This document shows, in pieces, positions 51,161 to 64,000 of a stretch of 64,000 nucleotides of DNA. Below the pieces are notes generated by a model. The model was given only the letters and a program-made list of their open reading frames with translations. It made no database searches and was not told the origin of the DNA. This DNA comes from Planctomycetota bacterium (GTDB lineage: Bacteria; Planctomycetota; UBA1135; GCA-002686595), in NCBI GenBank assembly GCA_020853575.1, contig JADYYP010000068.1, forward strand, positions 62,001-126,000, read 5' to 3'. The stretch's first letter is position 1. Every line of letters starts with the position of its first letter. The position numbers and the translations under genes were made by a program.

Positions 51161-52465
51161 GTGTCCGATGTTCGTTCGATCCTGACCACCAAGCGCGACG
51201 GCCGGCGCCTCTCGGACGCGCAGATCCACGAGTTCATCTCGGGCTACGTCGCGGGCGAGATCACCGAGTACCACGCGGCCGCGCTGTTGATGGCGATCTT
51301 CATCCATGGGATGGAGGAGCGCGAGCTCGCGGTCTGGGCGCGCGCGATGCTCGAGAGCGGGCGTGTGCTGCGCTTCCCGCGGATCGCGGCGCCCAAGGTC
51401 GACAAGCACTCGACCGGCGGCATCGGCGACAAGGTCTCGATCCCGCTGGCGCCAGCGGCGGCGGCCTGCGGGTTGGCGGTGCCGATGATCTCCGGCCGCG
51501 GCCTGGGGCACACCGGCGGCACGCTCGACAAGCTCGAAGCGATTCCAGGTTTCCGCACGCAGCTTTCGGCCGACGAATTCGAGCGCTGCCTCGAGCGCAC
51601 CGGCGTGGCGCTCGGAGGGCAGACGCCGGACCTGGTGCCGGCGGACCGCAAGCTGTACGCGCTGCGCGACGTCACCGGTTTGATCGAGTCGATCCCGCTG
51701 ATCGCCAGCTCGATCATGTCGAAGAAGCTCGCCGAGGGGCTCGACGCCTTGGTGCTGGACGTGAAGTTCGGCTCGGGCGCGTTCATGGTCGAGCGCGAGC
51801 GCGGCGCGGCGCTGGCCCAGGCCATGCTGGGCCTGGCGCGCGACTTCGGTGTGCGGGCGACGGCGCTGCACACGAACATGGAGCGTCCACTCGGGCGTGC
51901 GGCGGGTCACACGCTCGAGATCCTCGAGAGCTTGGAGTGCCTAGAAGGTCGCGGTCCGGCGGACCTGCGCGAGCTCGTGTGCTTGCAGGGCGGCGAGATG
52001 CTGCGTCTGGCGGGCTTGGTCCCCACGCTCGAGCAGGGAAAAGGGCGCATCGCGCGCGCGCTCGACGATGGCAGCGCGCGCGAGTGCTTCGCCCGCGTGG
52101 TCCGCGAGCAAGGTGGTGACGCACGCTGCCTCGACCAGCGCTCGTTGTTCGCGCCCGCGCCGCGGGTCGAGCTGCTCCACGCGACGCGCGACGGCGTGCT
52201 CGCATGGCGCGATCTACGCGCCGTCGGCTTCGCGATCTGCGAGCTCGGCGGCGGTCGCAAGCAGCTCGGCGACGTGATCGACCCGCGCGTCGGCCTGGTG
52301 TTCTTGCGCGAGGAAGGGGCGCGCGTCTCACGCGGTGAGCCGTTGATCGAGATCCACCACGCCGAGCGCGGCTTGGCCGACGCACGCGCCAAGCTCGAGC
52401 GCTCGTTCGAACTTCGGCCCGAGCACGCACCCGCGCCGCTCGTGCTTGCGAGCTGGTCGGTCTGA
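51161..52465 (+). CDS. deoA: Pyrimidine-nucleoside (thymidine) phosphorylase
   Basis: The 434-residue protein carries the nucleoside phosphorylase II signatures: VDKHSTGGIGDKVS (phosphate site), SGRGLGHTGGTLDKLE, and the lysine-rich ASSIMSKKLAEGLDALVLDVKFGSGAF. It splits thymidine, deoxyuridine and/or uridine with phosphate, giving base and pentose-1-phosphate; specificity cannot be read from sequence. A GTG start at 51161 is favoured because GAGGAG lies 8 bases upstream. It leads the nucleoside catabolism cluster and is followed 18 bases later by a nucleoside transporter. Confidence 0.95.
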   Translation: MSDVRSILTTKRDGRRLSDAQIHEFISGYVAGEITEYHAAALLMAIFIHGMEERELAVWARAMLESGRVLRFPRIAAPKVDKHSTGGIGDKVSIPLAPAAAACGLAVPMISGRGLGHTGGTLDKLEAIPGFRTQLSADEFERCLERTGVALGGQTPDLVPADRKLYALRDVTGLIESIPLIASSIMSKKLAEGLDALVLDVKFGSGAFMVERERGAALAQAMLGLARDFGVRATALHTNMERPLGRAAGHTLEILESLECLEGRGPADLRELVCLQGGEMLRLAGLVPTLEQGKGRIARALDDGSARECFARVVREQGGDARCLDQRSLFAPAPRVELLHATRDGVLAWRDLRAVGFAICELGGGRKQLGDVIDPRVGLVFLREEGARVSRGEPLIEIHHAERGLADARAKLERSFELRPEHAPAPLVLASWSV

Positions 52466-52483
52466 CGCTCCAGTAGCCGACGC

Positions 52484-53749
52484 ATGCTCTACCTGCGGTG
52501 CATCATCGGGATCGCTTTCTTCGTCGGCCTGGCCTGGCTGATCTCCTGGGATCGCAAGCGCTTCCAATGGCGCGTCGTGCTCGGCGGAGTCGCGCTCCAG
52601 TTCTTGATCGTGGCCTTGGTCGCCAAGACCACGATGGGACACGCCTTCTTCTCGCGCGCGGCCGAGTTCGTCGGCACCTTGGTGTCCAAGACGGTGCCCG
52701 GGGCGCAAGTGGTCTTCGGTCACCTCGCGACCGACAGCGGAGCGGAGTTCGTGTTCGCGTTCGCCGGCACCGGACTGATCGTGATCATCTTCGTCTCGGC
52801 GCTGATGAGCGTGCTCTACCACCTGGGAGTGATGCAGGTCGCGGTGTGGGCGCTCGCCAAGCTGATGAGCGCCACGATGGGGCTCTCGGGCGGCGAGTCG
52901 ATGGCGGCGGCGGCCAACATCTTCATGGGACAGACCGAAGCGCCGCTGGTGATCAAGCCCTACCTGCCGAGCATGACGCGCTCCGAGCTCAACTCGCTGA
53001 TGACCGGCGGATTCGCGACCATCGCGGGCTCGGTGATGGCGATCTACATGGAGATCCTCGGGCCCGAGCTCGCGCCGCACCTGATCACCGCCTCGGTGAT
53101 GAGCGCGCCAGCCTCGTTCGTGATCTCGAAGATCGTCCTGCCCGAGAGCGAAGTCCCCAGCACGGCCGGCAGGGTCGAGCTCAAGTTCGAGCGCTCGGCG
53201 GTCAACGTCATCGAGGCCGCGGCCAACGGCACGAGCGACGGGCTCAAGCTGTGGCTCAACGTGTGCGCCATGTTGATCGCGTTCATCGCTTTGGTGGCAT
53301 TGCTCGATTGGCCGCTGGGCGCGCTCGGCGGGCAACTGAACGCCTTGGGATTGCTCGACGGCACGTTGTCCTTGGGGCGCATCCTCGGTTGGGTCTTCGC
53401 GCCTTTCGCCTGGGCGATCGGCATCGAAGGCTGGCACGACTGTCAGTTGGTCGGCTCGTTGCTCGGGACCCAGGTCTCGGTCAACGAGTTCGTCGGCTAC
53501 AAGGCGCTCGGTCGCATCTTGCAAGAGAGCGATCCGGCGTTGCGATTCGAACATTCGCGCTCGGCCGTGCTGGCGAGCTACGCGCTGTGCGGCTTCGCCA
53601 ATTTCGGCTCGATCGGGATCCAGATCGGTGGCATCTCGGCGCTCGTTCCCGAGCGCAAGCCGGAGCTCGCCAAGCTCGCCTTGCGCGCGATGGTCGGCGG
53701 CGCGTGCGCGTGCTGGATGACGGCGACTGTCGCGGGAGTGTTCCTGTGA
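52484..53749 (+). CDS. nupC: Concentrative nucleoside transporter (CNT family)
   Basis: The 421-residue membrane protein has the CNT family features: an N-terminal helix pair, FVFAFAGTGLIVIIFVSALMSVLYHLGVMQ, the SGGESMAAAANIFMGQTEAPLVIKPY gate motif and TGGFATIAGSVMAIY, and a C-terminal GFANFGSIGIQIGG loop. It imports nucleosides with sodium or protons. It lies between the two nucleoside phosphorylase genes; its stop overlaps the punA-like start as GTGA. Together these genes feed external nucleosides into phosphorolysis. Confidence 0.95.
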   Translation: MLYLRCIIGIAFFVGLAWLISWDRKRFQWRVVLGGVALQFLIVALVAKTTMGHAFFSRAAEFVGTLVSKTVPGAQVVFGHLATDSGAEFVFAFAGTGLIVIIFVSALMSVLYHLGVMQVAVWALAKLMSATMGLSGGESMAAAANIFMGQTEAPLVIKPYLPSMTRSELNSLMTGGFATIAGSVMAIYMEILGPELAPHLITASVMSAPASFVISKIVLPESEVPSTAGRVELKFERSAVNVIEAAANGTSDGLKLWLNVCAMLIAFIALVALLDWPLGALGGQLNALGLLDGTLSLGRILGWVFAPFAWAIGIEGWHDCQLVGSLLGTQVSVNEFVGYKALGRILQESDPALRFEHSRSAVLASYALCGFANFGSIGIQIGGISALVPERKPELAKLALRAMVGGACACWMTATVAGVFL

Positions 53750-54549
53750 GCTCGATCGTCGAGCGCGACGTCGAGCGTCTCGCGAGCAGTCTCGTGCGCC
53801 ATGGAGTCGGCGCCGTGGAGGTGTCGTTCGTGCTGGGCTCCGGTCTGGGCGCGTTCGCCGAACGCATCACCCGGGCGCGGGCGATCCCCTACGCCGAAAT
53901 CGACGGCCTGCCGGTCAGCGGCGTCGCGGGCCACGCCGGCAGGTTGGTCGTCGGAGAGATCGACGGCGTGCGCGTGCTCGCCCAGCAGGGTCGGGTGCAT
54001 CTCTACGAGGGCTGGAGCGTGCACGAAGTGACGCGCGCGGTGCGTGCGATCGCGACGCTCGGCTGTCGGACGTTCGTGATGACCAACGCAGCTGGCGGCA
54101 TTCGGCCCGAGTGGAGACCCGGCACGCTGATGGCGATCCGCGACCACATCAACATGCAGGGTCGCACTCCGCTGCGGCGCGCGGAGAGGGGCTTCGGCAA
54201 TCCATACGACGATCGGTTGCGCGCTGGTCTGCAACGCGCGGCGCAAGAGCTCGCCATCGAGCTCGAGTACGGCGTGTACGTCGGGCTCCTGGGGCCGAGC
54301 TACGAGACGCCGGCCGAGATTCGCATGCTCGCGGCGTTCGGCGGGGACGCGGTCGGAATGAGCACCGTGGCCGAGGTGCTCGCGGCGCGCGCGTGCGGCG
54401 CGCGCGTGGCGGGCGTTTCGCTGATCACCAACCAGGCGGCGGGCATCTCGGGCGAGCGCCTGTCGCACGCCGAGGTGATTGCCGCGGGCCAGGAAGCCGC
54501 TGGGCGCTTCAGCGCGTTGCTCGAGCGTTCGGTGCGGCACATGCGCTGA
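53746..54549 (+). CDS. punA: Purine nucleoside phosphorylase
   Basis: The 267-residue protein is of the trimeric PNP type: LGSGLGAF (phosphate loop), QGRVHLYEGWS, TNAAGGI, GLLGPSYETPAEIRML and DAVGMSTVAEVLAAR. It cleaves (deoxy)inosine and (deoxy)guanosine with phosphate, producing pentose-1-phosphate and base. The GTG start at 53746 overlaps the stop of the transporter gene as GTGA, so translation is coupled. The next gene is 85 bases away and may have its own promoter. Confidence 0.95.
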   Translation: MSSIVERDVERLASSLVRHGVGAVEVSFVLGSGLGAFAERITRARAIPYAEIDGLPVSGVAGHAGRLVVGEIDGVRVLAQQGRVHLYEGWSVHEVTRAVRAIATLGCRTFVMTNAAGGIRPEWRPGTLMAIRDHINMQGRTPLRRAERGFGNPYDDRLRAGLQRAAQELAIELEYGVYVGLLGPSYETPAEIRMLAAFGGDAVGMSTVAEVLAARACGARVAGVSLITNQAAGISGERLSHAEVIAAGQEAAGRFSALLERSVRHMR

Positions 54550-54593
54550 ACCTGGGCCGCGAGCGGGGCGCGTGCGGCGCGCGAGCGACCGAA

Positions 54594-54622
54594 CTGGCAG
54601 TGACCGGAGTGCGTGCTACGCT
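54594..54622 (+). promoter_or_regulatory. Putative promoter of the rpiB-like gene
   Basis: CTGGCA (54594-54599) and TACGCT (54617-54622) are 17 bases apart, and the ATG at 54635 follows 12 bases after the -10 box. It suggests that the last two genes of the nucleoside cluster can be transcribed on their own. Confidence 0.35.
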
Positions 54623-54634
54623 GCTGCGCCTCCG

Positions 54635-55411
54635 ATGAGCGCCGACATCCGCGAGATCGCCCACCGAGCCGCAGCGCGCGTGTTCGCCGAGCGCGGCCGG
54701 GTCGAGCACCCCGTTGCGCACCCCGCGCGCGAGGCCGTCCCCGGCGTCGACGTGGTGCTGACCGGCGCCAGGCCCAGCGAGGCGCCGCCGCGCACCGGTC
54801 GGGCCTTGGTCACGGCCGAATGCTTGGCGTCGACCGCCTCGGGCGGCTCGTTCGCCGTTCCCGAGGACGCAGTGGTCACTCCCCTGGCGCTGGAAGAAGC
54901 GCAGCGGCGCGGCATTCGGTTGGCGACTGCCGGAGCGCGCGAGCAGCGGCGCATCGGCGTCGGCTCGGACCACGGTGGGTTTGCGCTCAAGAAGGCCGTG
55001 CTCGCCTGGCTCGCCCAACACGGCCACCTGAGCGTCGATTTCGGAACCCGCGACGAGAATGCGGTCGACTATCCCGACTTCGCGCGCGCCGTGGCGGAGG
55101 CCGTGGCGAGTGGCCAGTGCGAGCTCGGCATCGTGGTCGACGGAGCGGGCATCGGCTCGGCGATCGCCGCCAACAAGGTCCCCGGCGTCCGCGCGGCGAC
55201 GTGCTGCGACGTCGCCATGGCCAAGAACGCGCGCGAGCACAACTTCGCCAACGTGCTCGCGCTCGGCGGTAAGGGGGAGCGGGCCATCGCGCTCGAAATG
55301 GTCGCCACGTTCTTGGCCACTCCGACCGGCGAGGAGCGCCACCGCAGGCGCGTCGAGAAGATCAACGAGATCGAGCGGCGCTATGCGCGCGCGCCGCTTC
55401 CGCGCACCTGA
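54635..55411 (+). CDS. RpiB-like protein with N-terminal extension
   Basis: The 258-residue protein has an RpiB/LacA/LacB domain at about 106-250: [15 protein letters not shown], then [17 protein letters not shown] and [14 protein letters not shown]. Two things are odd. The usual CGTGIG motif reads DGAGIG (Asp169 in place of the catalytic-type cysteine, Ala for Thr). And about 105 residues precede the domain, including a segment [20 protein letters not shown] that recalls short N-terminal extensions of some microcompartment-associated proteins. It may still interconvert ribose-5-P and ribulose-5-P, or act on another sugar phosphate. It is followed by deoC, 61 bases away. Confidence 0.82.
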
Positions 55412-55472
55412 CCAACCCCTCCGTCTTTCGGGGCGGGGCCGCTTCGCCGCCCAACGACCACTCGACAAGCAC

Positions 55473-56363
55473 ATGCACGCGAAACCGACCTACATCAAGA
55501 AGTCGATCGGTCCGGCCGAGCTCGAGGCCCTGCTGGTCGAGATCGGGCGGCAGATCCTCGAGGAGGGCCCTGAGTCGTTCTTCCCGCACGGCTGCGCCAC
55601 GGTCGAGGTCGAGTTCTGCCCCGACCGCGCGCGCGAGGTGATCGGCGCCGGCGCCTGTCGACTGGGCTATTGCGGCTGCCAGGCCCCCGAGCTCACCAGT
55701 CTCGCGTCGTACATCGATCACACCTTGCTCAAGCCCGAGGCGACGCTCGCGGAGGTCGACAAGCTGTGTGAGGAGGCCCTCAAGAACAAGTTCGCCAGCG
55801 TGTGCGTCAACGGCGTCCACGTGAGGCGTTGCGCCGAGATCCTCGCCGGGTCGGGGGTGTTGGTGTGCTCGGTGATCGGCTTTCCGCTCGGACAAAGCGC
55901 GACCGAGGTCAAGTGCTACGAGGCGCGTCGGGCGATCGAGGACGGCGCCTGCGAGATCGACATGGTGCTCAACGTCGGACTGATGAAGTCGGGCGCGGTC
56001 GACCTGGTCGAGCGCGACATCGGGGCGGTGACCGAGGTGTGCCATCGGCTGGGCGCGCGGCTCAAGGTGATCTTGGAGACCTGCCTGCTGACCGACGACG
56101 AGAAGCTCGAGGCTTGCCGGATCTCCAAGCGCGTGGGCGCGGACTTCGTCAAGACGTCCACCGGGTTCAACAAGGGCGGAGCGACGGCCCACGACATCGC
56201 GCTGATGCGGCGCGCCGTCGGTGAGGGGATGGGGGTCAAGGCCTCCGGTGGAGTGCGCGACCAGAAAACCGCCAAGGAGATGATCGCAGCCGGTGCCACG
56301 CGGATCGGCGCCAGCGCTTCGGTCGCGATCGTGCGCGGCGGCGCGTCCAGCTCGACCTACTGA
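55473..56363 (+). CDS. deoC: Deoxyribose-phosphate aldolase with N-terminal extension
   Basis: The 296-residue protein includes a class I DERA domain from about 72: Asp163 in [10 protein letters not shown], Lys198 in RLKVILETC, the Schiff-base Lys227 in FVKTSTGF and Lys256 in GVKASGGVR, and a C-terminal tyrosine as in the E. coli enzyme. It cleaves 2-deoxyribose-5-phosphate into acetaldehyde and glyceraldehyde-3-phosphate. About 72 residues come before the usual domain, with five cysteines (41, 49, 62, 67, 69) in a pattern that could bind a metal. It closes the nucleoside cluster; the next gene is convergent. Confidence 0.95.
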
Positions 56364-56479: not shown

Positions 56480-56968
56480 TCAGCAAAGGCCCTTTTCGAC
56501 CAGCGCGTGCGCGATCAGGAACTCGTCCGGGGCGTGGTCCGCGTCGCCGGGCACCAGCACGATCTCCTGGGGCTGCAGTCCCGCGTGCAAGGCCACCTGA
56601 TAAACGCGCACGAGGTCCAGCACACGATCCTCCAAGCGCCGCCCGGCGGGGACCTGGAACACGAAGTCGACCAGTCCCTCGCCAATGGCGGCCAAGTCGA
56701 CTTCCGGCAAGACGCCCGGTGCGACTTCGCGGATCGCTGCCCCACGCGGGGATGGATGGAAGTGGGAGGCGCCGCGCAGACCCCACAGGCGCGTGCCGTC
56801 GTGCGCGCGCAGTCGCCACTCGACGACATCCGCCAACGGACCGGACAAATCTGCGCGCGGGATCAGGACCAGGCCGCGTTGCACGGACTCGAGCCGCGAG
56901 AGTCTTTGGCGCCAGTAATCAGGGTCCAGCAGCAGCGAAGTCGGTGCTCGCTTACTGGGGGCAGCCAT
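56480..56968 (-). CDS. Hypothetical protein
   Basis: An open frame of 162 codons (start ATG at 56968; an upstream in-frame start lies at 57022). The protein is soluble with no signal peptide. A basic N-terminus (MAAPSKRAPTSLLLDPDYW) is followed by a mixed alpha/beta stretch with LVLIPRADLSGPLADVVEWRL, HPSPRGAAIREVAPG and VRVYQVALHAGLQPQEIVLVPGDADHAPDEFLIAHALVEKGLC. I do not recognise it. It is convergent with deoC and divergent from the amidohydrolase operon. Confidence 0.6.
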   Translation of the reverse strand: MAAPSKRAPTSLLLDPDYWRQRLSRLESVQRGLVLIPRADLSGPLADVVEWRLRAHDGTRLWGLRGASHFHPSPRGAAIREVAPGVLPEVDLAAIGEGLVDFVFQVPAGRRLEDRVLDLVRVYQVALHAGLQPQEIVLVPGDADHAPDEFLIAHALVEKGLC

Positions 56969-57381
56969 AATCGCCCGGCTAGCCGAGGGAGCGTGCGCTC
57001 CGAACGCAGGGAGTCGGATCAATTGCGATTTCCATCCCCGACTCCAGTGGATGGGAAGACTTTTGCAGGGAGTGAGGCGGCGCGCATGGATTGCACCGGG
57101 CGCGCCTCCGACTCACGCCTGCCCGCCGCGTGGGGAGGGGGTAAGACGCCCGTAACTCGCTGTCGCACGCGAACCTCGGTGGCGCGCGCGGCCTGTTCAG
57201 CGGCCGACCCGCGTCCTTATGATTCGCGCCCCCACTCGGCCGAGTCGCCTCGGGTTCGGTCGTCCCCCTGAAACTTCATTCATCTGGTTCCGCGTCGTCG
57301 AGCGCTCGACGGTGCGCCGCCAGCGCCCCGCATCTCCCAGGCTGAGGCAGGAGAGCGCGCGGGAGCAGGAGAGTCCCCGTC
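56969..57381. other. Intergenic region upstream of the amidohydrolase operon
   Basis: This 413-base gap, the longest in the window, holds no gene I can support. It looks less GC-rich than its neighbours in places. It separates a hypothetical gene on the minus strand from the plus-strand amidohydrolase operon, so both promoters should lie here. A candidate ECF-type promoter is at 57270-57297, and AGGAGAG lies before the TTG at 57382. Confidence 0.6.
57270..57297 (+). promoter_or_regulatory. Candidate ECF-type promoter for the amidohydrolase operon
   Basis: GAAACTT (57270-57276), 16 bases, then CGTCG (57293-57297) resembles the GGAACTT/CGTC pair recognised by many extracytoplasmic-function sigma factors. 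It lies 84 bases before the TTG start. Two membrane-fused ECF sigma factors and one planctomycete-type sigma factor are encoded in the window, but no link is shown. Confidence 0.25.
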
Positions 57382-58755
57382 TTGCTAGCGATCATCAGCC
57401 TGATGACGTTGGGCCTTCACTCCGGGTCCACGTCGATGTTCCATTCCGCGTCCGAGGACCAAGCCACGGCTCGCAGCGTCTTGGTGCGCAGCGAGAAGTT
57501 GTACGTCACGCCCAAGCGCGTGATCGAGGGTGGGGCGCTGCTCATCCAAGACGGCGTGATCGTGCAAATCGGCCGAGGCCTCGAGGCGCCCGAAGGCGCG
57601 CGCGTGATCGAGGGTCGAGTCGTTTGCCCTGGATTCATCGACGCTTGGTCGAGCTTCGCGCTCGAGGAGAACGCTTTCGAAGACGACCGCGTCGGCCGCG
57701 CCACGCGCGCCAGCGATGCGCTCGACTCCTACGTCGATCCGCGCTTCGAGCAGCAAATCCTCGGCGCAGGGGTCACCGCCTACCGCGTGCAGCCTTCGGC
57801 GGGGGCGCGAGCGGGTGGCTTGGGAGCGGTAGTCCGACTGCACCCGGGGAAGCGCGCCGATCAGAGCACGCTGCTCGCGGATTGCTGCCTCGCGGGTGGC
57901 ATCGGCCTGGCTCGGGACGGGCGCGCCGTCGACGTCTTCGATCGCGTGGGCGAGATCGATCGTTGGATCGGCGCGCTGTCGGATGGTCAGGCCTACCTCG
58001 AGGAGCAGAACGAGTACCGCCACGAGCTCGAGGAATGGCAAAAGAAGATCGCCGAGAAGGACAAGGAACTCGACGAGGCTTTCAAGAAGGCCAAGAAGGA
58101 CCGCGAGAAGGCCCAGACCGAAGCCAAGGACAAGGGCACGGAGTTCAAGGAGAAGGAATACAAGGAAGACAAGAAGCCCAAGGCTCCGCGCTTCGACGAG
58201 GACAAGGCGGAACTCGCGCGCGTTGCTTCCGGTGAACTTCCCTTGGTGCTCGAGGTGCATCGCGCGCTCGAGATCCGCAGCTTGCTCGAAGGCACCAAGC
58301 GCTTCACGCGGTTGCGCTTGGCGATCGCGGGCGGGACCGACGCCTTGGAGTGCGCCGAAGAGCTCAAGGCGCGGCGCATTCCGGTGATCGTGTGGCCGCA
58401 GCCGACCGTCGGCGGGCGACCGGAAGAGGCGCGCGTCAAGGGCATGGGGTTGGCGGCCGCGCTGGAGTCCGCTGGCGTCGAAGTCATCCTGGGCAGCGGC
58501 GCGGCGGCTGGCATCGGCTCGCGCGACCTACCGCTGCTCGCCGCCCTGGCGGTCGGCCACGGGATGCAATCGGAGGCCGCGCTGGCCGCGATCACCACGC
58601 GCCCCGCGCGCATGTTCGACGTCTCCGACAAGGTCGGATCGCTCGAGGTCGGCCGCCAAGCCGACGTCGTCGTCTTCAGCGGCGAGCCCTTCGCCGCCAC
58701 CACTCAAGTCCGGTTCGTCATTTCAGGCGGCGATCTCGTCGTCGAGGGGCGCTAG
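57382..58755 (+). CDS. Exported amidohydrolase-like protein with charged insertion (array gene 1)
   Basis: A 457-residue protein with an amidohydrolase N-terminal beta-sandwich (EGGALLIQDGVIVQIGRG), then CPGFIDAWSS at 82-91 where active enzymes have PGFIDxHxH, so both metal histidines are missing. A strongly charged, Lys/Glu-rich segment at about 206-278 looks like an inserted coiled coil. The C-terminus ends as in amidohydrolases (VGSLEVGRQADVVVFSGEPF). The N-terminus is hydrophobic, consistent with export. I infer a non-classical or inactive member. The TTG start is preceded by AGGAGAG at good spacing. First of five adjacent genes; the next starts 2 bases after its stop. Confidence 0.82.
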   Translation: MLAIISLMTLGLHSGSTSMFHSASEDQATARSVLVRSEKLYVTPKRVIEGGALLIQDGVIVQIGRGLEAPEGARVIEGRVVCPGFIDAWSSFALEENAFEDDRVGRATRASDALDSYVDPRFEQQILGAGVTAYRVQPSAGARAGGLGAVVRLHPGKRADQSTLLADCCLAGGIGLARDGRAVDVFDRVGEIDRWIGALSDGQAYLEEQNEYRHELEEWQKKIAEKDKELDEAFKKAKKDREKAQTEAKDKGTEFKEKEYKEDKKPKAPRFDEDKAELARVASGELPLVLEVHRALEIRSLLEGTKRFTRLRLAIAGGTDALECAEELKARRIPVIVWPQPTVGGRPEEARVKGMGLAAALESAGVEVILGSGAAAGIGSRDLPLLAALAVGHGMQSEAALAAITTRPARMFDVSDKVGSLEVGRQADVVVFSGEPFAATTQVRFVISGGDLVVEGR

Positions 58756-58757
58756 CG

Positions 58758-59870
58758 ATGCTCACTTGGATTCTCGGTCTCGGCGGCGTCGTCGCCGCGG
58801 TTCCCGTGCAAGCGTCGGACGACCACGGCGCGCAGGCGTCGTTCGCGGTTCGAGCGCAGCACTTGCGGCTCTTCGGCAACGAGGTCGTGCACGACGGGGT
58901 GCTCGTCGTCGAGAACGGCAAGGTGCGGTACGCCGGTGACGCCAAGCGCGCTGGTGAGATCGGTCACGACGTGATCGAGCACGACGGTTGGCTCAGCGCC
59001 GGCCTGGTGGCCTGCCGGTCCTACAGCGGCACGCGCGGAGACACGCTCGAAGGCAAGCGTCCCTTGACTGCCGAGGCGCGCATCGCGGACGTGGTCGCCC
59101 TCGACCACGTCGATTTCGAACGCGCTTTGGCCGCCGGGATCACGACCATGGTCATCGCGCCCTCGGCTGCGAATGTGGTCAGTGGGGCAACGGCCGTGGT
59201 CAAGACGCACGGCGCCTCGTTCGTCTCGCGCGAGGCGCATCTGGCGCTCTCGTTCAGCGATTCCGCGCTGCGCTTCAATCGCTATCCGACCAGCTACATG
59301 GCCGCGCTCGGCGAGCTCGAGAACGCGCTCGCGCGGCCCTCGGGCGTGTGGAAGCGCGTCGCCGATGGCAAGTTGCCGGTGCTGCTCGACGCCGGATCCC
59401 GCGACGAGATCCAGCGCGCGGTGCGCTTCGCCAAAGACCACAAGCTCCAAGGCGCGCTGAGCCGCGCGCCGTGGGCTGGCGAGCTCGCCGACGACGTCAA
59501 GCAGTCCGGATTGGCGGTGATCGCCGGTCCGTTCGACGTCGGCACGGCCGAACGTTCACTGGCCTCGGTCGTGGCGCTGGCCAAGGCCGGAGTTCCGCTG
59601 GCCTTCGGCGTCGACGCGCCGTGGAACAGCGAGGAGGGCTTGCGGCTCTCGGCCGCCATGTGCATGCGCGCCGGGCTCGACGGCCGGACCGCCTGGGAGT
59701 CCCTGACCTCGACTGCCGCGGCGGTCGCCGGCGCCGGAACGCGCGTCGGCAAGCTCGTCAGTGGCTACGACGCCGACTTCGTGTTGTGGAGCGGCGATCC
59801 CTTGGATTTGACCAGTCGCGTGGTCGCCGTCTACGTCGACGGGCAGCGCGCTTTCGGAGGTGCAGAGTGA
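58758..59870 (+). CDS. Exported amidohydrolase-like protein (array gene 2)
   Basis: A 370-residue protein with a signal peptide (MLTWILGLGGVVAAVPVQAS) and an amidohydrolase plan: DGVLVVENGKVRYAG, the metal-site position reading SAGLVACRSYSG (80-91) with no histidine, and a C-terminal GKLVSGYDADFVLWSGDP. It keeps an Asp in AFGVDAPWNSEEGLRL, the position of the usual fifth metal ligand. It looks catalytically degenerate or uses other residues. It starts 2 bases after gene 1 and its stop overlaps gene 3 as GTGA. Confidence 0.82.
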   Translation: MLTWILGLGGVVAAVPVQASDDHGAQASFAVRAQHLRLFGNEVVHDGVLVVENGKVRYAGDAKRAGEIGHDVIEHDGWLSAGLVACRSYSGTRGDTLEGKRPLTAEARIADVVALDHVDFERALAAGITTMVIAPSAANVVSGATAVVKTHGASFVSREAHLALSFSDSALRFNRYPTSYMAALGELENALARPSGVWKRVADGKLPVLLDAGSRDEIQRAVRFAKDHKLQGALSRAPWAGELADDVKQSGLAVIAGPFDVGTAERSLASVVALAKAGVPLAFGVDAPWNSEEGLRLSAAMCMRAGLDGRTAWESLTSTAAAVAGAGTRVGKLVSGYDADFVLWSGDPLDLTSRVVAVYVDGQRAFGGAE

Positions 59871-61075
59871 GCGTCTACTTCGGTCTCGCGATCGCACTGC
59901 TCGCCGGTGCGCCGCAGGAGGACAAGGACCGCACGTCCTGGACGATCTCGGCGGAGTGGGTCTACACCGCCGCCGGGGATGCGATCGAGGGTGGCCTGGT
60001 CACGGTCTCCGACGGCAAGATCCGCAGCGTGTCCTCGGGCGACGGCGGACAGCTCCAGTGCTTCGCCGTCACGCCTGGTCTGGTGGATCTCTCGGTGCGC
60101 ATCGACCGCGGTTGGAACGCGGTCGAACAGTCGCGCGAGGTCACGCCGGAGATGCGCGTCGTCCAAGCGCTCGATTGGTTCGACGAAGGCTGGATGCGCG
60201 AAGCTCGCAGCGGTGTCACCACCGCGATGGTCAACGTCAGCGATCGCAACGTGGTCGGTGGCATGTCGGTGGTCGTCAAGACCGCCGGCGCATCGCCGCA
60301 AGCGCGCACGGTCAAGGCCGACAGCGTGCTCTACGGAGCGATCGGGTCCGCGCCGAGCAGCTCGAATCACCCGGCCTACGGTCGCCCCGACGACTTCTAC
60401 TCGCGGCGTCCGACGACCCGCATGGGTGTCGAGTGGGAGTGGCGCAAGGCGTTCTACGACGCCGCGCTCGCGCAGCGCGACAAGAGCAAGCAGGTCGCTG
60501 GCACGACCGAGTTGCAGAAGGTGCTGGCCGGCGAGTTTCCGCTGATGATCCAGGCCTGGACCACGCAGGACATCCGCACCGCGGTGTTCCTGAAGGAAGA
60601 GCTGGAGCGCGAAGGCCTGGGCGCTCCGCGGCTGATCGTCGATGCGGCAGCGGAAGCCTGGCGCGAGCCCGATCTGCTCGTGCGCACCAAGACCCCCGTG
60701 GTGCTCCCGCCCTTCGCGCCGCAGGGCCGAACCGGCGAGGGTTCGTTCTTCGCGCTCGAGACCGCCGCGCAGCTGGACGCCAAGGGCCTGCTGGTCGCGC
60801 TCTCGGGCCACGGCGCGCGCCAAGTTTCGCAGCGTCTCGCGTACCAGCCGGGCTACGCCATGCGCGGCGGCATGACCTTCGACGCGGCACTCAAGACCGT
60901 CACCATCAATCCCGCGCGCATGGTCGGTGTCGACCGGCGCGTCGGCAGCCTCGAATCCGGCAAGGATGCGGACCTGGTGCTCTGGAGCGGCAAACCGTTC
61001 GAGCTCTCGTCCGCCGTCATCGGCGTCCTGGTCGACGGGCGCCTGATCCTCGATCCGCGTCAAGCGAACAAGTAG
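59867..61075 (+). CDS. Exported amidohydrolase-like protein (array gene 3)
   Basis: A 402-residue protein starting at GTG within the stop of gene 2 (GTGA). A short signal-like N-terminus precedes AIEGGLVTVSDGKIRSVS, and the metal-site position reads TPGLVDLSVRID (69-80), without HxH. An ARSGVTTAMVNVSDRNVVGGMSVVVKTAGA segment is the analogue of the region after the first ligands. The C-terminus has VGVDRRVGSLESGKDADLVLWSGKPF, the family ending. Its function is unknown; the ligands suggest it is not a standard metal amidohydrolase. Confidence 0.82.
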   Translation: MSVYFGLAIALLAGAPQEDKDRTSWTISAEWVYTAAGDAIEGGLVTVSDGKIRSVSSGDGGQLQCFAVTPGLVDLSVRIDRGWNAVEQSREVTPEMRVVQALDWFDEGWMREARSGVTTAMVNVSDRNVVGGMSVVVKTAGASPQARTVKADSVLYGAIGSAPSSSNHPAYGRPDDFYSRRPTTRMGVEWEWRKAFYDAALAQRDKSKQVAGTTELQKVLAGEFPLMIQAWTTQDIRTAVFLKEELEREGLGAPRLIVDAAAEAWREPDLLVRTKTPVVLPPFAPQGRTGEGSFFALETAAQLDAKGLLVALSGHGARQVSQRLAYQPGYAMRGGMTFDAALKTVTINPARMVGVDRRVGSLESGKDADLVLWSGKPFELSSAVIGVLVDGRLILDPRQANK

Positions 61076-61097
61076 TCCCCTGGAACCTCAGCCCATC

Positions 61098-62582
61098 ATG
61101 AACGTCTTCACCGCTTCCACCCGCGCCGCCGCGATCGCGATCGGCGCTCTCTTGCTCTCCGCGAACGCCGCAGCCGACGGCAAGCTCGCCATCAAGGCCG
61201 GCAAAGTGGTCCAGGGTCCGGGGATGCCCGAGATCGACAAGGGCGTGATCTTGATCGAGAACGGTCGCATCGCCGCGATCGGCGCCGACGTCAAGGTGCC
61301 TTGGGACGCGACCGTGATCGACGCACCCAAGCTGGTCGCGTTCCCAGGCTTCGTCGAAGCCCACAGCGCGCGCGGCATGGACCGACCGAACGAGAACATC
61401 GATCCGGCGGCGTTCCTCTCGGTGCGCGACTCGATCGACCCGGTCAATTTCTACTTCGAGGACTCGCTGCGCTGGGGCATCACGACCATCAACATCCAGC
61501 AGGGCAACAACTGCGTCATCGCCGGCCAAGGCATGGTCGTGCGGCCGATGGGAATCACCATCGACGAGATGACCGTCAAGACCGTGTCGGGCGTCAAGCT
61601 CTCGGCCACGCCCAAGGCTGGGATGTCGGCGGCCACGCAAGCACAAGCGCTGCGCAAGGCCTTTGGCGATCTGCAGCGCTACCTCGAGCAGCTGGTCCAA
61701 GAGAAGAAGGACGGCAACGACCGCGCGCGCCGCGAAGCGCTGTTCCAAGGCCGCGACCTGGAAGGCGAAAATGCCAAGGGCCGGGCGATGGAAGGCAGCG
61801 CCTGGAAGGTCGCCGGACTGGAGCTGATCCCGCGCGGCGAGATCGACGAGAAGCAGGTGCCGCTGTTGGCACTGGTCGAAGGCAAGCTGCCGGCGTTCTT
61901 CTACTGCGGTCGCCCGATGGACGTGCACCGCGCGCTGGAGGTGGCCCGGGACAACGGCTTCCTCGCGCGCACGACCTTGGTGATCTCGCCGGCTTGCTAC
62001 AAGGCCGCCGACGTGATCGCCGAGGCGGGTGTGCCGGTGGTGCTCGAGGGACCGGTGGTGTTCACCGAAACCGACCCGCTGACCGGCGCTGAGACGGAGA
62101 TCTTCGTCCCCGGCGAGCTGAAGAAGAAGAACGTGCGCTTCGCGCTCTCGAGCGCCAACACCACCACCGAGTCGCTGTGGTTCCAAGCAGCGCAGTGCGT
62201 CGGTCGCGGCATGACCAAGACCGACGCGGTCGCCAGCGTGACCACGATTCCCGCAGAGATTCTGGGCTTGGGCAAGCAGGTTGGCAGCCTCGAGGTCGGC
62301 AAGGCCGGCAACGTGCTGTTGTTCTCGGGCGAGCCGCTGTCGGTCACCTCGTGGGTCGAGAAGGTGGTGATCGAAGGCAAGGAAGCCTACGACCGCAGCA
62401 AGGACGTGCGCGTGAAGCACCTCATGGCGGGCAAGGCCCCGGCCAACACGCAGGCCATGGGTGGCTCGGCGTCGGCGGAGAAGAAGGTCGTGTGCTGCGA
62501 GGGTGAAGACCCGGCCGAGCACGCCAAGCACCTCGAGGCCGAAGCCAAGAAGAAGGACAAGGGCGAAGGAGAGGACAAGTGA
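61098..62582 (+). CDS. Exported amidohydrolase-like protein (array gene 4)
   Basis: A 494-residue protein with a clear signal peptide (MNVFTASTRAAAIAIGALLL...NAAA). It retains a single histidine at the metal site: FPGFVEAHSARGMDRP (His89). The core has RWGITTINIQQGNNCVIAGQGMVVRPMG and the C-terminal GSLEVGKAGNVLLFSGEPL. After the domain comes a tail of about 45 residues with a Cys pair (VVCCEGE) and Lys/Glu-rich KKKDKGEGEDK. It is the least degenerate of the set. Its stop overlaps the next start as TGATG. Confidence 0.83.
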   Translation: MNVFTASTRAAAIAIGALLLSANAAADGKLAIKAGKVVQGPGMPEIDKGVILIENGRIAAIGADVKVPWDATVIDAPKLVAFPGFVEAHSARGMDRPNENIDPAAFLSVRDSIDPVNFYFEDSLRWGITTINIQQGNNCVIAGQGMVVRPMGITIDEMTVKTVSGVKLSATPKAGMSAATQAQALRKAFGDLQRYLEQLVQEKKDGNDRARREALFQGRDLEGENAKGRAMEGSAWKVAGLELIPRGEIDEKQVPLLALVEGKLPAFFYCGRPMDVHRALEVARDNGFLARTTLVISPACYKAADVIAEAGVPVVLEGPVVFTETDPLTGAETEIFVPGELKKKNVRFALSSANTTTESLWFQAAQCVGRGMTKTDAVASVTTIPAEILGLGKQVGSLEVGKAGNVLLFSGEPLSVTSWVEKVVIEGKEAYDRSKDVRVKHLMAGKAPANTQAMGGSASAEKKVVCCEGEDPAEHAKHLEAEAKKKDKGEGEDK

Positions 62583-64000
62583 TGCGCTCGGTCCACTTCG
62601 CGATCGCGGCGGCGATCCTCTCCGGCGCTGGTGCGCATTCGAGCGCGCTGTCCAGCGGCGGCGCGACGGTGCTCAAGGCCGGAACCGTGCACACCGTCGA
62701 AGGCGCGCCGCTGACCGGCGGCGCCGCGGTCGTGATCCGCGACGGCCTGATCGTCGCCGTGGGCAAGGACCTGGCTCTTCCCGGCGGCGCGCAGGTGATC
62801 GACTACGGCCCGGACGCCGTGATCATCCCGGGACTGGTTTCCGCGGGCTCGGCCTACGGTGGCGGAGTCGGATCGGCGCGCACAGCGGATCCGAGCGTGC
62901 GCGCGCTCGATCATTTCGACGTCTACTCGCGGGTCTACATGACCGACGTCATGGGTGGCGTGACCACCGCTTACATCTCGCCAGCGCGTTCGCGCCTGAT
63001 CGGCGGCCAGGGCGCGGTGGTGCGGCTCGCCGGAGACGAGTCCGAGCGCGTGCTCGACGAGAGCGCCTCGATCCACGGCACGATCACGTCGCAAGCGCGC
63101 AGCGTGCCGGGCTTCTGGGAGCCGCCGATCCCGGCCACGGTCGACGTCGGGCTCGGGGTCGCCGAGCCGCAGCTGCCGGGGTCCGCCATGGGCGCGGTGA
63201 TCGCGCTCGACGAGCTGCTGGCGCGCGCCACGGGCCGCGTGAAAGACGACGGACTCTACGGACCGCAGACTTCGCAGACGCTGCGCGCGTTGATGCAGGC
63301 CGGAACGCCTTGGCGCATGGGTGCCGACAGCGCCGAAGAAGTGCGCGTGCTTCTGGAGTGGGCCCAGCGCGAAAAACTGCCGCTGGTCATCGAGGGTGCG
63401 AACGACGCCGATGCGCTGGCGCGCGAGCTGGCGGCGGCCAAGATTCCCGTGATCGTCGGGGTCGATGTCGCGACCGATGGCCCCGGGCGCGATTTCGGTT
63501 TCGGCCCCGATGCGCAGCGCCCGCGCTACGACGTGGCCGCGAAGCTCAGCGCTGCCGGGGTCGAGCTCGCCATCGCCACCGACGGTGGCCTGCGTCCGCA
63601 GGACCTGCGATTCGCGGCCCAGTTGGCCTCGCGCGGTGGACTCTCGAGCGACGCGGCGCTGCGCGCGATCACCCTCGGCGCGGCCAAGATCCTGGGCGTC
63701 GACGCCAAGGTCGGCAGCCTCGCCGTCGGCAAGGACGCGGACCTCTGCGTGCTGAACGGCGCTCCCATTTCGACGGACTCGACCGTGGTCGCCACCTGGG
63801 TGCGCGGTGAGCTCGCCTGGAAGGCGGCTTCGGGCAAGGCGACGGTGATCGAGGCCGACGAGGTGTACGTCGGTGACGGTCATGTGCTCAGCCCGGGGCA
63901 AGTGCTCCTGAAGGACGGGCGCATCGCCGAGATCGGGCGGCGCGTCAGCCATCCTCCGGGCGCCACGATCGTGCGCGCGCCGGCCGCCATGCCGGGCATG
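62582..64000 (+). CDS. Exported amidohydrolase-like protein, two modules (array gene 5, truncated by window end)
   Basis: Open to the right edge: 473 codons are visible. A signal-like N-terminus (FAIAAAILSGAGAHS) precedes a full amidohydrolase-like module: GGAAVVIRDGLIVAVG, the metal-site position PGLVSAGSAYGG (83-94) lacking histidines, GGVTTAYISPARSRLIGGQGAVV, ELAIATDGGLRPQDLRF, and the ending VGSLAVGKDADLCVLNGAPI. From residue 424 a second N-terminal sandwich starts (GQVLLKDGRIAEIGRRV), so the protein is probably a tandem fusion of two modules. The end of the second module is outside the window. It overlaps gene 4 by one base (TGATG). Confidence 0.82.
   Translation, partial: MRSVHFAIAAAILSGAGAHSSALSSGGATVLKAGTVHTVEGAPLTGGAAVVIRDGLIVAVGKDLALPGGAQVIDYGPDAVIIPGLVSAGSAYGGGVGSARTADPSVRALDHFDVYSRVYMTDVMGGVTTAYISPARSRLIGGQGAVVRLAGDESERVLDESASIHGTITSQARSVPGFWEPPIPATVDVGLGVAEPQLPGSAMGAVIALDELLARATGRVKDDGLYGPQTSQTLRALMQAGTPWRMGADSAEEVRVLLEWAQREKLPLVIEGANDADALARELAAAKIPVIVGVDVATDGPGRDFGFGPDAQRPRYDVAAKLSAAGVELAIATDGGLRPQDLRFAAQLASRGGLSSDAALRAITLGAAKILGVDAKVGSLAVGKDADLCVLNGAPISTDSTVVATWVRGELAWKAASGKATVIEADEVYVGDGHVLSPGQVLLKDGRIAEIGRRVSHPPGATIVRAPAAMPGM

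Follow-up and report, generated by a model that had tools for sequence, protein, structure and literature searches.

The window, i.e. the whole stretch of 64,000 nucleotides that was analysed, corresponds to bases 62001-126000 of the 136691-base planctomycete contig C68. Its last part is occupied by five adjacent genes encoding exported amidohydrolase-like proteins, the fifth of which contains two modules (g5a and g5b). They are listed below in window coordinates:

57382-58755, + strand: g1, exported amidohydrolase-like, without metal ligands; WxS replaces HxH
58758-59870 (alternative start 58752), + strand: g2, exported amidohydrolase-like, ligands lost in the window genome
59867-61075, + strand: g3, exported amidohydrolase-like, without metal ligands; 4-base overlap with g2
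61098-62582, + strand: g4, exported amidohydrolase-like, first beta-1 His and Lys ligand kept
62582-63838, + strand: g5a, first of the two amidohydrolase modules in gene 5; metal ligand set absent
63839-64000 in the window and on to C68:127458, + strand: g5b, second module of gene 5

As a sequence-only reading of this DNA had stated, the five genes are co-directional and coupled, the spacing from one to the next being -4 to 22 bases, and the beta-1 motifs which it had read were borne out: PGFIDAWSS (g1), SAGLVACRS (g2), PGLVDLSVR (g3), PGFVEAHSA (g4) and PGLVSAGSA (g5), the HxH pair being absent from the PGFxDxHxH position in all five. The C-terminal motif said to be shared by them is present in a looser form than was claimed (GKLVSGYDAD in gene 2, GSLEVGKAGN in gene 4). 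Each of the five exceeds the Pfam cut-off of Amidohydro_1 (PF01979), and their N-termini are all signal-peptide-like, in agreement with the predicted export of the products. A charged coiled insertion is carried by g1, while gene 5, starting at 62579 (GTG) or 62582 (ATG), encodes one 958-aa protein that overruns the window end. Upstream of the operon a nucleoside salvage gene group was recognised by Pfam (window 51161-56363; pyrimidine nucleoside phosphorylase, NupC-type nucleoside transporter, purine nucleoside phosphorylase family protein, RpiB-type isomerase and DeoC-type aldolase). A 180-aa open frame on the - strand (window 56483-57022), with no Pfam match, lies just upstream of the operon.

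The operon runs on unbroken for about 12.7 kb past the window, to the end of the contig, and comprises at least 12 exported amidohydrolase genes with 13 modules in the succession g1, g2, g3, g4, g5 (a+b), g6-g10, g11 and g12, with intergenic spacing of -4 to 25 bases that varies with the choice of start codon; less than half of the operon falls within the window. The continuation is as follows:

C68:127458-133890: g6-g10 (H type), five genes with HxH and the metal site intact
C68:133916-135202: g11, without HxH, motif PGLINPYSR
C68:135205 to the contig end: g12, without HxH, motif PGLVAINS; interrupted by the contig end inside a KKPDE repeat

The HxH motifs of g6-g10 read PGFIDLHCHVAG, PGMLELHCHVGG, PGMIDLHSHVGG, PGMIDLHSHIGG and PGMVDLHSHVQT. 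The statement that most genes are without HxH is thus true of the window genes and fails for the whole operon, where intact and ligand-less copies are mixed. The PF01979 cut-off was reached by all operon proteins in the Pfam run; g7 and g9, outside that run, match the same family above the cut-off in a genome search.

The ligand positions were read by alignment to the sequence of PDB 3OOQ, which we take to be the Thermotoga maritima amidohydrolase TM0814. In the H copies both beta-1 His, the beta-5 His, the beta-6 His and the beta-8 Asp are present in 64 of 64 sequences of the first set, and HxH, K, H, H, D are invariant in all 77 of a larger one. In the eight other modules the picture is the reverse: the full ligand set never occurs in seven of them, and in g2 it is present at 2 of 42 loci. 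Nor is the loss confined to HxH, since most modules have also been deprived of the beta-5 His, the beta-6 His and the beta-8 Asp. None of the modules g1-g5a, tested in the window, retains the catalytic set, nor does any other ligand-less module of the window genome; even g4 is without the second beta-1 His, the beta-5 His, the beta-6 His and the beta-8 Asp. The old ligand positions carry conserved substitutions that differ from module to module (Ser/Arg in g3 or Tyr/Arg in g11, for instance). Because the full set persists in g2 of L065 and L118, and a partial one in a few other loci, g2 appears, from the aligned residues, to have lost its metal site more than once or rather late; "eight dead modules" is therefore not a universal description.

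Each ligand-less module was searched over about 40 loci for conserved His, Cys, Asp and Glu that might form a displaced metal site, and none was found; in particular, no set of histidines restores a metal site in any of them, in keeping with the original reading of these genes. The only histidines conserved at 90% in the ligand-less modules of these loci are one in g4 and one in g11, the latter different from the beta-1 His retained by g4. No clear conserved polar cluster was seen in g1, g2, g5a or g11 in the same loci, and g1, g2 and g11 have at most two His/Asp/Glu/Cys/Lys/Arg positions at 90% conservation. Conserved charged residues do occur in g3, g4 and g12, where they could line a binding pocket. 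Of the two descriptions put forward earlier, a set of pseudo-enzymes is supported for most modules; as an account of the operon it is incomplete, since between one and five H paralogues with all the ligands belong to it. The other, enzymes with a new active site, finds little support.

About 40 loci, which represent more than 20 families within Planctomycetota, share the core order g1-g2-g3-g4-g5a/b-H(1-5 copies)-g11-g12. It is without exception, contig ends aside, in the first 25 loci (taken from relatives between genus and order level, together with named MAGs) and holds across 42 loci with family-level divergence, some modules of the most distant loci being named by position and not by best-matching profile. 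Loci from other families have the same nine-module order, with a single H each where H is present. In a 294-genome sample of the phylum H was found in 73 genomes (E <= 1e-90), 71 of which have g12 (E <= 1e-65) and 72 of which have g4 (E <= 1e-50); G023, which is among the exceptions, is due to a contig end. Of 154 genomes from the class to which the window belongs, 145 have g12. In one genus the operon of two genomes is divided between two contigs, as g1-g5 and H-g11-g12, with both halves kept, and an apparent loss of H, g11 and g12 in G175 (L108) was rejected since the missing genes sit on another contig. The order being conserved across the phylum and both halves being kept where the operon is split, the genes are therefore not scattered in related genomes. 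A scan of named genomes for close matches to g4 only returned, among others, the complete genome of Planctomycetes bacterium Poly30 (CP036434). This strain is presumably the one given the name Saltatorellus ferox, which NCBI places under Planctomycetia. In G087 there are apparently two copies of the operon, on contigs C63 and C339, with g4, H and g12 matches on both.

Purifying selection acts on the ligand-less modules: comparisons within the genus give dN/dS values of 0.08-0.36 for all modules, ligand-less and catalytic ones being alike in kind, and the identity of g4 between species is 77%. Full-length frames of ligand-less modules are found in dozens of genomes. The AlphaFold2 model of g4 (mean pLDDT 85.7, pTM 0.79) matches 3OOQ with a TM-score of 0.81-0.82 by target length and an E-value of 5e-30, the next structure being at 7e-13, and the best match of the g5 model is likewise 3OOQ (TM 0.83 by target length). 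A distorted TIM barrel with a flanking beta sandwich was found in both models, and the ligand-less modules, as modelled for g4 and g5, are predicted to keep the TM0814/3OOQ fold. In g5b an inserted eight-strand beta domain (residues about 654-748 in the model; L021:7529-7837 covers residues about 650-752) has no Pfam match. For the two-module g5 model the pTM reaches only 0.50, too low for a confident prediction of how g5a packs on g5b.

Neighbouring genes have been fused in several lineages with loss of the inner signal peptide: g1+g2+g3 in L115, g1+g2 in L116, L118 and L119, and g11+g12 in L117, while g5a and g5b are fused in every locus. HxH is still present in the fused g2 of L115, L116 and L118. 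Two further candidates, g4+g5 in L112 and g3+g4 in L123, were rejected, as in both the frame crosses an N stretch between the modules. No fusion of H to another module was seen among the loci of this operon; active-inactive fusion does occur in the simpler L023 and L125 proteins. The simpler sets are:

L024:6431-9072 (G000:C2, window's genome): two-gene unit, an HxH gene PGLVDTHSHVGG followed by a gene without it PGLIDAHSVVGL
L023:6485-11090 (G000:C53, window's genome): three-module set, an inactive gene beside an active+inactive two-module gene
L125:6320-10819 (complete genome from another family): three-module set joined in one protein of 1499 aa

In L023 and L125 the order of modules is inactive-active-inactive. 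A Gly/Trp-containing beta-rich stretch seems to come after the inactive N-terminal module in both. The existence of these simpler mixed sets suggests, without proving, that the operon began as a small active/inactive unit and grew. When 120 modules were placed in a quick maximum-likelihood tree, eight changes sufficed for the nine module types, the lowest number possible, which places the diversification of the set before the split of these families, and the module types form deep orthologous clades. Some groups are weakly supported (g1 alone requires four changes; support for g2 and g5b is 76%) and there are several long branches that meet, which makes the deep branching between modules untrustworthy.

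Taken together, fusions, translational coupling, fixed order and joint retention are best read as signs of a common assembly. The window holds the 5' part of an operon whose proposed product is an exported amide hydrolase that depends on metal and is a hetero-assembly of paralogous subunits. The chemistry would be done by the H type (five copies here, g6-g10, but only one in many other planctomycetes), whose complete putative binuclear site comprises two beta-1 His, a Lys (probably of beta-4), the beta-5 His, the beta-6 His and the beta-8 Asp. The modules g1, g2, g3, g4, g5a, g5b, g11 and g12, which have lost the ligands (with rare exceptions in g2) and, as modelled for g4 and g5, kept the barrel, may serve as structural, substrate-binding or regulatory subunits in fixed proportion. 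It is rather probable that the product is an exported hetero-oligomeric hydrolase with one kind of catalytic subunit and eight non-catalytic paralogues. The wider claim, that at least nine paralogous amidohydrolase modules, only one kind of them catalytic, make up an extracytoplasmic hydrolase of a sort new to the superfamily, is more doubtful than probable. The earlier proposal of one complex with fixed stoichiometry gains from the neighbour fusions and co-retention, which stop short of proof; conserved order could come from co-expression alone, and since the copies of H vary from one to five, the overall stoichiometry cannot be strictly fixed.

Co-expression is the basis of a competing and unlikely explanation, according to which the ligand-less modules are independent exported binders of different small ligands, merely produced together with the hydrolase. 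The signal-peptide-like N-termini of all modules suit such binders, as do the charged residues of g3, g4 and g12 as a possible pocket lining and the substitutions peculiar to each module at the old ligand positions; nevertheless, several different neighbour fusions, a strict order throughout the phylum and all-or-none retention exceed what binders would need. The least plausible view is that of decaying duplicates or a high-GC annotation artefact, for which the many copies without ligands might speak. It is already contradicted by the data, i.e. by complete frames across dozens of genomes, dN/dS values far under 1, between-species identities of up to 77% and a confident fold.

Strong purifying selection and the conserved polar residues of g3 and g4 speak for a view in which every ligand-less module is an enzyme whose active site is new and uses no metal, with the operon as a pathway. 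This is improbable, more so than independent binding: a complete conserved set of His and acidic ligands is found in H only, g1, g2 and g11 are nearly devoid of conserved (90%) His/Asp/Glu/Cys/Lys/Arg positions (two or fewer), and no transporter or pathway gene accompanies the operon as a conserved neighbour throughout the phylum. The search for conserved flanking genes as a clue to function gave no strong hint. A same-strand downstream gene, read by eye as TrpD2/YbiB-type phosphoribosyltransferase-like, occurs in 13 loci of the same order, and recurring upstream frames are limited to near relatives, in some loci of that order.

As for the substrate of the proposed hetero-assembly, the closest solved relative of the H type is 3OOQ (profile E 1e-79), which is also the closest one of the ligand-less g4 and g5, with the same fold and C-terminal motif, and has the same metal ligands as H. 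In contrast to the operon, 3OOQ is a single sequence with intact ligands, a structural-genomics protein, and to our knowledge no ligand-less partner set accompanies it; in the literature searched, no paper naming TM0814 was found. COG1228-type amidohydrolases (Cc2672 3MTW, prolidase 3N2C, 3BE7 arginine carboxypeptidase) belong to the same superfamily with much weaker matches. Peptidase-like members of COG1228 attack the amide bonds in dipeptides or in N-acyl amino acids, and from kinship with them and 3OOQ it may be guessed that the assembly hydrolyses such a bond in a small peptide or an N-acyl amino acid. The NCBIfam equivalog of the Caulobacter dipeptidase, NF051886, gave 22-72 bits against a cut-off of 500, so that no specific substrate can be named.

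Assemblies in which non-catalytic duplicates are retained have been described elsewhere. CRMP/dihydropyrimidinase-related proteins, ClpR/ClpP and the beta subunits of the eukaryotic proteasome are cases where duplicates that lost catalysis stay in the assembly; they come from other families or another cellular setting, and their membership is demonstrated, whereas that of the planctomycete modules is inferred. Within the superfamily, the ATCase-pDHO dodecamer of Pseudomonas aeruginosa is described as a multi-subunit enzyme in which an inactive amidohydrolase-superfamily chain, the pseudo-dihydroorotase, is essential to its partner (PMC7053772). The inactive chain there is of one kind and supports an enzyme of another family, ATCase (PMC7053772). 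The planctomycete operon differs in having eight ligand-less kinds, exported, beside their own active paralogue in what would be a complex.

A literature search on planctomycete amidohydrolase arrays and on sets of amidohydrolase pseudoenzymes found nothing relevant. The pairing of an active enzyme with one dead paralogue is an already known arrangement; an ordered set of eight dead paralogue kinds beside one active member, in much of a phylum, is undescribed as far as the searches show. The two-, three- and nine-module sets, with the stages of ligand loss in g2, offer a natural series from catalytic to structural or regulatory subunits. The operon points to an extracytoplasmic metabolic function new to the knowledge of planctomycetes and, if the proposed reading is true, a multi-part enzyme machine would be close to universal in one class of Planctomycetota.
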